Source: Chitinivibrio alkaliphilus ACht1 | Lineage (GTDB): Bacteria > Fibrobacterota > Chitinivibrionia > Chitinivibrionales > Chitinivibrionaceae | Assembly (NCBI RefSeq): GCF_000474745.1 | Contig: NZ_ASJR01000010.1 | Span: forward strand, 1 to 64,000 | DNA: 64,000 nt | Direction of reading: 5' to 3' | Part shown: in pieces, positions 57,393 to 61,762 of the stretch | Layout of the letters: the number at the start of each line of letters is the position of its first letter | How positions within the stretch are numbered: the stretch's first letter is position 1 | Translations under genes and position numbers: made by a program | Notes under the pieces: generated by a model | What the model saw: only the letters and a program-made list of their open reading frames with translations | What the model was told of the DNA's origin: nothing | The model's database searches: none

Positions 57393-57592
57393 TAGTACTC
57401 CAGGGAGTTATATTTTTCGTTATGCCTAAATATACTTGATGATTTTTATTTATTAAAGTACTAAGATGGAAAAACAGATGTGTTTTTTTTCACAATAACA
57501 GTGGTGGTATTTTTTTTCTCCCTATGCCAACACGAAGAAAAATGAAGTATATTCCCAAAGCAGAGTTTTATCAATAAAAGGGTTATGGTTGT

Positions 57593-59299
57593 ATGGATAA
57601 AAATGAAATTATCGGGCTTCTCAAAGAGCAGTGTAAACTTGCCTCAATTCTTTCAGAAGATGTTCTGGAAGATATTGTAGAAGAATCACAATTGGAAACC
57701 TTTGAAAAAGGTGAGTACATACTCGAATTTGAAGAAAAAACCCCCGCCGTATTCATCCTTCTTCGGGGAAGTGTTCGGGTGAGTCTGATCTCCGATGACG
57801 GAAAAGAAAAAATCTTCGACCATTTCCATGCCGGTTCTCTCATGGGTGAAGTGAGCACAATTACCCGGGCCACCGCCTATGCAACAATCACGGCCGAAGA
57901 TGTCTGTCTTGCCCTGGAAATTCCCATCCCCGTGTTCAAGAAAAAAATCCTCTCTGACATTAAGGCATTCAACCATCTTGTTGAGGTAATGTCTAACAAA
58001 CTTGGGAAAGTTATTCCGGGCATAGAGAAACACACATCGTGTCAAGAAAAAAACGACCCCTATGGCTTCAAGCTTACTACAAAAACCCCGCAAAAAATAT
58101 TGGTCATAAACTGTGGATCTTCATCACTTAAATATACGTTTTTTAATACAGAAGACATGGAAAACAGTGTGGATGGGCAGGTTGACCGTATTGGGACTGC
58201 TGTCCCCATGGGACTTGAATACAATGCCGGGAAAACAGAGATTGAACGAGAACTTGAACCGGGTACCCATAAAGACGCTTTTGATGCCATCATTCAGATT
58301 CTCACATCGAAGGAATTTGGCATAATCTCATCTCCTCAAGAGATAACTGCCGTGGGGCATCGCGTGGTACATGGAGGAGATAAATTCAGCCACCCCACTC
58401 TCATTACGGATGATGTATTACGCGGTATTGAAGAAGTATCCAGCTTGGCTCCCCTTCATAACCCTGTAAACCTTGTGGGGATACATGAGTCAATGCGCGT
58501 ATTTCCCTCGGCAGCACAAGTGGCGATATTTGATACCGCCTTCCACCAGACAATCCCCCCTCATGCATACCTATACGGGCTTCCCTACGAATACTATGAG
58601 AAAAAGCGTATCCGCCGATACGGATTCCACGGCACATCTCACTACTATGTATCCCTTATGGCAGCCGATTACCTTAAACGTTCCTACACAGATCTTAAGC
58701 TTATCACCTGCCATCTTGGTAACGGCGGTTCCGTATGTGCTATTGAACACGGGAAATCAGTTGACACCTCCATGGGTATGACCCCCGCCGAAGGAATTAT
58801 CATGGGGACCCGCTCTGGGAGTATCGACCCTGCGGTTATTCTCCATCTGATGGACTCCGAAAAAATGACTTCCGGCGAAGTGAATCAGCTCATCAACAAG
58901 CAAAGCGGACTCCTCGGCCTCTCGGGGATCTCTAACGATATGCGGGATATTGAGCACGCTGTGAAACAGGGAAAAAATCGGGCTGTCCTTGCATATAAAA
59001 CCTTCTGTTACTCTATTAAAAAGTACATTGGTGCCTACAGCGCTACCCTCGGTAATGTTGATGCGCTTATCTTCACCGGAGGCATTGGGCTGTATAACTC
59101 CTTTGCTCGGGAAGAGGTTTGTAAAGGCTTGGGCGCTCTGGGGATGTTTATCGACCAAGAAAAAAGCAAAGATCTGAACGGAGCGAAGAAAGTCGTTGAT
59201 ATCGCAACGGTGGACTCTCCTGTTCGTATTCTGGTTATCCCCACGAACGAAGAGTTAATGATTGCCCGAGAGACCCTCAGCGTAATCTGTGCAGACTAA
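57593..59299 (+). CDS. ackA: Cyclic-nucleotide-binding domain fused to acetate kinase
   Basis: A 568-residue fusion. Residues about 15-140 are a cNMP-binding (Crp-like) domain: FEKGEYILEFEEKTPAVFIL, LRGSVRVSLIS and the phosphate-binding cassette GSLMGEVSTITRATAYATI (Glu86, Arg92). There is no DNA-binding helix-turn-helix. From about 166 the protein is a complete acetate kinase: ILVINCGSSSLKYTFFN, VGHRVVHGGDKFSHP, FDTAFHQTIPPHAYLYGLP, RRYGFHGTSHYYV, CHLGNGGSVCAI and MGTRSGSIDPA. It should convert acetyl phosphate and ADP to acetate and ATP; ligand control by cAMP, c-di-GMP or another small molecule is inferred. No pta is adjacent. Confidence 0.93.
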   Translation: MDKNEIIGLLKEQCKLASILSEDVLEDIVEESQLETFEKGEYILEFEEKTPAVFILLRGSVRVSLISDDGKEKIFDHFHAGSLMGEVSTITRATAYATITAEDVCLALEIPIPVFKKKILSDIKAFNHLVEVMSNKLGKVIPGIEKHTSCQEKNDPYGFKLTTKTPQKILVINCGSSSLKYTFFNTEDMENSVDGQVDRIGTAVPMGLEYNAGKTEIERELEPGTHKDAFDAIIQILTSKEFGIISSPQEITAVGHRVVHGGDKFSHPTLITDDVLRGIEEVSSLAPLHNPVNLVGIHESMRVFPSAAQVAIFDTAFHQTIPPHAYLYGLPYEYYEKKRIRRYGFHGTSHYYVSLMAADYLKRSYTDLKLITCHLGNGGSVCAIEHGKSVDTSMGMTPAEGIIMGTRSGSIDPAVILHLMDSEKMTSGEVNQLINKQSGLLGLSGISNDMRDIEHAVKQGKNRAVLAYKTFCYSIKKYIGAYSATLGNVDALIFTGGIGLYNSFAREEVCKGLGALGMFIDQEKSKDLNGAKKVVDIATVDSPVRILVIPTNEELMIARETLSVICAD

Positions 59300-61762
59300 G
59301 AGCTCTATCCTCATTTCAGGTAGGGGAAGATACCCCCTACCACCCCTGTCACACTTCATCCAGGTACTCACATGGTTTCTCTTCCTATTGTGCCTCTCCC
59401 CCCTGCATGGAGAAGACACCCTCTCCTACCAAGCAGACAGCATTCACTACGGTCTCAAAGAAGCACGCATCGAACTGCACGGCAATGGTCGTCTCTCCCA
59501 TGGCTCTGTACACCTCTTTGCTGAACAGATACACTACAATCTGGAAACGGAAATCCTTAAAGCCTACGGAACCCCCGTACTGATTGACTCCGGCGACACT
59601 CTGTACGGTGAATATATTGAATATCATATCCGTGAAAACCGAGGCAGAATTGGACAAGCACGCTTTTCTGATATACAGGATAGTGCCCTCTATAGAGGCG
59701 ATGAAATGGCACGAGATTCCACAGGCACAATCTATATATCCGGTGGACGATATACAACCAGCTTTACCCGTCCGCCACAATACACTCTCTTTTCACCGCA
59801 GTTTAAGCTTATCCCCGATGAAAAAGCCCTTGCACGCCCTGTGGTTTTAGAAGTACAGCGGTCTCCCGTGGTAAGCCTTCCCTTTTTCATATACCCCCTT
59901 GATGATGATCGCAGATCAGGTTGGCTCACCCCTCGATGGGGTGTTGGTATTGCAGGCACTGGGTATGTTGATAATATTGGGTACTATTGGGGAGAAAACC
60001 CGTATATTGACTTTACCATGGCAGGGAGAATAAATGACTTTGAGCACTATCAGTTAAGAGGGGAAACACGATACCATTTAAGAAATCGCCTCCGAGGAAA
60101 CCTTTCTGCCGATATGTCATTCGATGATTATTACGGTGGAAGTTCCCAAAGATGGTCTCTTTCATATGAACACTCACAACACTTCCTTCCTGACCACAGT
60201 CTTTCTCTCCGGGGAAGCGGAGAGCTTGTCTCTGACAACCGCTACTACAGCGACTACTTTCGTGATACCACCGATTTTCTGCGCCAAACAACACGCTCTC
60301 AGCTTACATTGCAAAAACGCATGCACCGCCTCTCCGGCCACACCAGTGCGTCTTGGGAGCGCCGTGAGGACTTCTACCGACAAGAGCGCACCCAAACCTT
60401 ACCGCATCTGCGTTTTTCCACGGGAAACTATCCCCTTCTCCCCTTTTTAGAAGAGAGTAGCCTTACTTGGTCATATTCGGCACAAGGACTTTCACGGACC
60501 ACGGAAATATATCGTGAAGAGGAGGAAGAAGAAACAACTGAAGCAGGAATACATCATACTCTGCCGGTGCAAGGACAACTCACCCTATTTAACAATCTTC
60601 ATGCCTCCCCCGTTTTACGGTACAGCAATCAACCTTTTCATCATACTGGGACACCACAACCATGGTGCAAAAAGATACACTCATAGCCCTGTGGGATACC
60701 CTGTCCAGTGAAGAATATTTCAACTCACCATCTCTACATACTCCCGACGACAGTCTCATTACCAGGGACGATTCTACATTTTATAAAGTGAGTCGGGGCG
60801 ATTCGTTGGCTGTGGTAGAACGCTATGATACACTTTTCCTGGGAGAGGACGCCTATGATGTGCAAGATGCTACCACAACGTGGTGGACTGCCGGTATTGA
60901 TTTTCATACCAATATCTATGGCATTTTTCCGCTCAAGGTAGGACCTATCACAGGAATTCGTCACACCATAACTCCGCGAGTTGGATACACAATTGTACCT
61001 GAAGAGATCAATACCTTCCGTTATCCAGGCATTTTACCCTCTGCAAGAGCAACAGATCGACAACAAAACCTCACCTTTTCCCTCGACAACAATTTTGACG
61101 CCCGCATTCAACAAAACAAAGATCAATCTCCACGCAGGGCCACCCTTCTTAACACCTCTCTTCGGGGGCAGTATAATTTAGAAGCAGAGGAAGAAAAATT
61201 CAGCCCCATTGATTTTCGAGCAACCATACCACATTCGCACCTATCCCTAACATACCGCGGTAGATACACACCGTACAACACGTCCCAAGAGCTGATTTTT
61301 CCCGAAGCTCTCTCCCACGATATCTCCTTTACCCCCTCTGTTCCGGGCGTATCAGGAGATATATGGAGTGGCGATCTATTCACATTTCATGATGCCCTTT
61401 TTCCCGCCTACCTTGGAGGAGCCCACGCCACTGACACAGACTGGTCCTTAGACATATCTCCCACGTATCGGATCAGCCTCCGTCGTGATGACATAGACCG
61501 CCCCTTTCAGCAAGAACAAACCTATACCCTTTCAACACGGGCACGGTTTCGCTTTTCCCATCGGTGGCAAATGCAGTGGAGTGGACGTTGGTCGTTTCAG
61601 GAAAATAACTTTATAAATCAAGAAGTATCACTTCTTGCAGACCTCAACAGCTGGGACCTTCGGGTTCAGTGGAATCCCACAGGCGTAAACAGCGGCCACA
61701 TTAACATGATTGTTGCAGTGAAACGACATAGGGAGATAAAGTGGGAACATGACCGCATCTAA
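59289..61762 (+). CDS. lptD: LPS-assembly protein LptD, frame broken at 60635-60638
   Basis: Outer-membrane translocon for lipopolysaccharide. The first frame (GTG 59289, overlapping the kinase stop) has a signal-like N-terminus, an OstA beta-jellyroll domain (DTLSYQADSIHYGLKEARIE; AYGTPVLIDSGDTLYGEYIE) and the start of the barrel (RSGWLTPRWGVGIAGTGYVD), then ends at 60686. The continuing barrel (SSYWDTTTMVQKDTLIALWD; GIRHTITPRVGYTIVPEEIN) is in the -1 frame to 61762. One extra T in the TTTT at 60635-60638 restores one protein of about 825 residues. LptD is usually essential in LPS-bearing cells, so a sequencing error is more likely than true loss. Confidence 0.82.

Follow-up and report, generated by a model that had tools for sequence, protein, structure and literature searches.

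A gene of Chitinivibrio alkaliphilus ACht1 encodes, in a single unbroken frame, a 568-residue acetate kinase (AckA) that carries an N-terminal CNB domain, and we consider it probable that this protein descends from a three-domain CNB-AckA-PduL fusion, its CNB being no canonical switch and having come under weaker constraint after PduL was lost. The gene lies within a stretch of 64,000 nucleotides, which we refer to as the window; its parts are collected in Table 1.

Table 1. Positions of the CNB-acetate kinase gene and its parts, numbered along the window
Feature	Position	Strand	Basis and remarks
CNB-acetate kinase fusion gene	57593..59299	+	open frame, including stop codon; Pfam PF00027 and PF00871
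Possible ribosome-binding stretch aaaaggg	57576..57583, approximate	+	about 10 bases before the ATG; putative, read from the sequence
N-terminal CNB domain and helices, residues ~3-147	57599..58033	+	Pfam core 35-119; AlphaFold2 C-helix 123-147
Degenerate phosphate-binding cassette GEVSTITRATAYATITA, residues 85-101	57845..57895	+	aligned against 42 fused CNBs and 60 others
Linker, residues 148-166, with family-conserved DPYGFKL	58034..58090	+	kept in relatives; low pLDDT at 146-154
Acetate kinase domain, residues 168-559	58094..59269	+	PF00871 full length; active-site residues; Foldseek TM 0.9 to AckA structures

Both Pfam matches far exceed chance, with cNMP_binding scoring 54.8 bits against a cut-off of 27.5 (E 9.7e-15) and Acetate_kinase covering 392 of its 392 profile positions at 487.9 bits (E 2.3e-146). 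The NCBIfam model for ackA (TIGR00016), whose cut-off is 293 bits, scores the protein at 492. The original prediction had placed a cNMP domain and an acetate kinase in one frame and had called the pairing unusual for an acetate kinase, and both statements are borne out. Its recognition of the acetate kinase motifs is also confirmed, since every active-site residue checked (N173, R257, H289, D314, H346, N377, R407 and E553) is identical to its counterpart in M. thermophila (in order N7, R91, H123, D148, H180, N211, R241 and E384), residues with roles in catalysis. The protein would be expected to interconvert acetyl phosphate and ADP with acetate and ATP. An AlphaFold2 model (mean pLDDT 85) contains the CNB beta-roll, a long C-helix and the AckA fold, with pLDDT below 50 in the linker at residues 146-154. 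The nearest solved structures are acetate kinases. Foldseek against the PDB likewise matched acetate kinases, followed more weakly by PKG, PKA-R and CRP-like proteins. Stand-alone AckA (TIGR00016/PF00871; M. thermophila 1g99/1tuu, T. maritima 2iir) shares the catalytic domain, the active site and the predicted fold, whereas the protein from the window adds a CNB and linker of ~166 residues. A search of its own genome with the 568-residue sequence at E 0.001 returned no match besides itself.

In CNB domains the cassette Glu binds ribose and the cassette Arg binds the cyclic phosphate. The cassette was originally described as complete, with Glu86 and Arg92 as these residues, and only the first half of that description stands. 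Residues 85-101 (GEVSTITRATAYATITA) pair without gaps with the PKA-RIa reference cassette, GELALIYGTPRAATVKA, and with 60 other CNBs; in this register Glu86 corresponds to the cassette Glu, and E+9, where the phosphate-binding Arg belongs, falls on Ala95. Arg92 sits three residues out of register at E+6, which rules it out as the cassette Arg. Loss of the Arg is a trait of the whole AckA-fused CNB family: of 60 CNBs whose proteins have no AckA, 59 carry it at E+9, against none among 43 AckA-fused CNBs (42 relatives and the protein from the window), with a Fisher p of 2e-28 that overstates independence because the CNB rows share descent. The comparison CNBs came from the same searches as the fused set and were mostly gathered by the pattern [FY]GE[IM]S[LM]MT, which makes no demand on the Arg position. 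Among the 42 fused relatives the E+9 residue is Thr in 32, Ala in three, Asn and Leu in two each, and Ser, Met and Val in one each, and 35 of them have Asp or Glu at E+12, where the usual residue is Thr or Ser. The cassette Glu is invariant in the AckA-fused CNBs and the cassette Gly is likewise kept in all of them; loss of cassette residues in homologues, which the original prediction had named as evidence against itself, is thus seen for the Arg and not for the Glu. The domain belongs to PF00027 by fold, profile score and ribose-binding Glu, and shares the Gly-Glu and C-helix of the CRP and PKA-R CNBs, but differs from these ligand-binding members in that the cyclic-phosphate Arg is replaced, here by Ala95 and in relatives mostly by Thr.

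These observations bear most directly on the proposal of direct kinase control by a cyclic nucleotide bound to the CNB, which we now regard as highly improbable. The CNB fold and the cassette Glu are present and the genome holds three matches to the cyclase-like family PF00211, but the absence of the phosphate-binding Arg, here and in every fused relative, makes canonical cAMP or cGMP control unlikely, and the CNB presumably does not bind cyclic nucleotides. Co-occurrence with cyclases is uninformative in this respect because cyclase-like genes are found in 32 of 40 genomes of the order. The CNB would instead be a CRP/PKA-R-fold domain with a role in regulation or assembly, lacking the cyclic-phosphate Arg family-wide, and would respond to an effector that is no cyclic nucleotide or to none at all.

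The search for the domain pair across genomes, as the original prediction had proposed, showed that the fusion is shared by 11 further genomes of the order (phylum search; open frames of ~760-890 codons) and occurs in many phyla, and added a feature that the prediction had not foreseen. These relatives, of ~775 residues, consist of a CNB, an AckA and then a PduL-type phosphotransacetylase (PF06130), a third domain that was probably lost in the lineage of the window gene; in the five three-domain proteins scanned with Pfam, the PTAC domain matched with E values of 7e-63 to 3e-78. A scan across genomes with the CNB-linker region as query found the same architecture under the labels Spirochaetales, Hydrogenedentes, Planctomycetota, Verrucomicrobiota, Aminicenantes, Fischerbacteria, Desulfobacteraceae, Nitrospirae, Elusimicrobia and Deltaproteobacteria, single ones of which may be wrong because the genomes are mostly MAGs. 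In the ancestral fusion PduL would make acetyl phosphate from acetyl-CoA and AckA would convert it to acetate and ATP on one chain, possibly with channelling of the intermediate. Erbilgin et al. (2016; PMC4784909) drew attention to fusions of AckA with PduL and suggested channelling and replacement of Pta. Their passage on these fusions mentions no CNB (PMC4784909). The three-domain relatives likewise join AckA to PF06130, whereas the protein from the window lacks PduL in a genome that uses Pta.

Across 392 Planctomycetota genomes the acetate kinases are mostly single-domain, and the three-domain fusion occurs in about a dozen. Three large genomes of this set encode AckA-PduL proteins without a CNB (L131 in G338, L132 in G367 and L133 in G323), and these branch just outside the CNB-bearing clade in a midpoint-rooted tree, which suggests that AckA-PduL may have come first and that the CNB was added later. 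Two fused copies each were seen in three Nitrospirota genomes, those of L047 (Magnetominusculus), L051 (a Nitrospirae MAG) and L059 (Magnetobacterium), and in one of the Magnetobacterium copies PduL is missing and the CNB has diverged strongly. In L032 (2094-4187(+) and downstream) the PduL part lies in another frame than CNB-AckA, reflecting either a frameshift or an assembly error.

The AckA tree, built by quick search and rooted at the midpoint, groups the protein from the window with the AckAs of its family that have no CNB (SH-aLRT 99), and the family clade lies inside a 31-row set (SH-aLRT 98) that is otherwise made of fused proteins. Because its AckA nests inside the three-domain clade, we read the protein as a reduced form. 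Alignment and tree show that it shares with the CNB-AckA-PduL fusions the CNB, the conserved linker and an AckA of the same clade; the C-terminal PF06130 domain is missing, and since PduL is absent from protein and genome alike, it is better described as a reduced descendant than as a full member. Further steps of reduction are visible in its family. In L002, the nearest member, MDSNEML is followed by TTDDPYGFKL, so that the CNB is gone and the linker is kept, and lptD is the next gene downstream, as it is for the window gene; in L010 and L011 both CNB and linker are missing. The domains would appear to have been lost in the order PduL, then CNB.

PF06130 was found neither in the protein nor in any of the five family genomes, its own included, and all five encode a stand-alone Pta (PF01515; in the C. 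alkaliphilus genome at G000:C38:2356-3357). Pta is absent from 10 of the 11 genomes of the order that have the three-domain protein. With PduL missing and Pta present in the family, Pta stands in PduL's place, and the job of the lost domain would now be held by this enzyme encoded elsewhere in the genome. Absence of Pta is not a rule for three-domain genomes across phyla, since PF01515 scores above the cut-off in 13 of 22 named genomes; four of these matches are almost full-length, and several are weak or short. Two further proteins, L059 and L130, have CNB-AckA without PduL; the genome of the former also has a three-domain copy, and that of the latter (G520, 3.9 Mb), which may be incomplete, gave no match to PF06130 or PF01515.

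When CNB distance was regressed on AckA distance for 29 fused proteins, the two outliers were the protein from the window (residual 0.74) and L059 (0.88), with the next at 0.35, and both lack PduL. The window CNB is the second most divergent of the 29, and of the conserved positions the protein retains 16 of 26 in its N-terminal part against 141 of 158 in AckA. Between the close three-domain relatives L118 and L119 the dN/dS of the CNB is ~0.15, and the domain is therefore maintained where PduL is present. The unusual divergence of the window CNB fits relaxed constraint, and the domain is probably on its way out; weaker constraint after the loss of PduL would have left it degenerate here and deleted in sister genera. 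That CNB decay is tied to the loss of PduL rests on two to three lineages. Against it, L130, close kin of three-domain proteins, shows little CNB acceleration despite lacking PduL, in a genome without PduL and Pta matches. PduL loss does not, then, always speed CNB change, and any such effect must either take time to build up or stem from something else. Also against decay, the window CNB, which is well above the Pfam cut-off and confidently folded in silico, may be functional.

The CNB could be a live allosteric sensor with an altered pocket that still gates acetate/ATP flux in response to a non-cyclic effector, such as a nucleoside or central metabolite. The best precedent for a CNB with Thr in place of Arg is the PKA-R of trypanosomatids, in which Thr or Asn replaces the cassette Arg and purine nucleosides are bound (PMC10959531). 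A polar residue at this position is common to most of the three-domain relatives, and the trypanosomatid structure 6h4g is among the Foldseek matches. The nucleoside-binding cassette also has a critical ribose-binding Glu at E+2 (PMC10959531), however, whereas E+2 is Ser or Ala in nearly all fused CNBs. Just half of the signature is therefore present in the family, and the window protein, with Ala95 at E+9 and Ser88 rather than Glu at E+2, does not belong to the trypanosomatid type. Retention of the cassette Gly and Glu in every fused CNB, the low dN/dS and the Pfam score would all suit a working sensor, but the Ala at E+9, the marked divergence of the window CNB and the fact that sister genera manage without the domain lead us to consider this explanation unlikely.

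It could also be argued that the CNB and its C-helix form a structural domain, dimerising or binding a partner and needing no ligand. CRP has a dimerisation helix, and the long helix that follows the beta-roll, at 123-147 in the window protein and 123-153 in the three-domain relative L003, is comparable to it; loss of the phosphate-binding Arg would also fit a ligand-free domain. Against this, AckA dimerises on its own. PduL also dimerises without a CNB (PMC4784909), and an invariant Gly-Glu would be needless in a purely structural role. We consequently think this explanation improbable, and continue to favour descent from the three-domain fusion with weakened constraint on the CNB.

Viewed more broadly, these proteins matter because of the metabolite they handle: acetyl phosphate serves as an energy currency and also donates phosphoryl and acetyl groups in signalling. 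We found no paper in the open-access literature that deals with an acetate kinase and a CNB domain together, and protein databases may list the architecture. Fusion of AckA with PduL having been published already in 2016, it is the addition of the CNB of which we found no account in that literature. As a tentative proposal, to which we give rather less than even chances, CNB-AckA-PduL proteins may constitute a widespread undescribed class that takes acetyl-CoA by way of acetyl phosphate to acetate and ATP on one chain, controlled by a CNB remodelled to sense an effector other than cyclic nucleotides, the sensor eroding once Pta replaces PduL. If this is true, a single-chain acetyl-CoA-to-acetate enzyme with a built-in sensor, present in genomes labelled with about ten phyla, would give fermentative ATP formation a new control point. 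The three-, two- and one-domain forms offer a natural series for asking what the CNB is for, and the label 'cyclic nucleotide-binding' is probably misleading for AckA-fused CNBs, which are a clear case of this kind.

Immediately 3' of the fusion gene lies an lptD-like gene (59289-61762(+)), which starts with GTG and shares its first 11 bases with the end of ackA. Its reading is split between two frames with an overlap at 60662-60686, whereas the lptD homologue beside L002 is open over its first part, and the break is due either to a frameshift in the gene or to a sequencing error.
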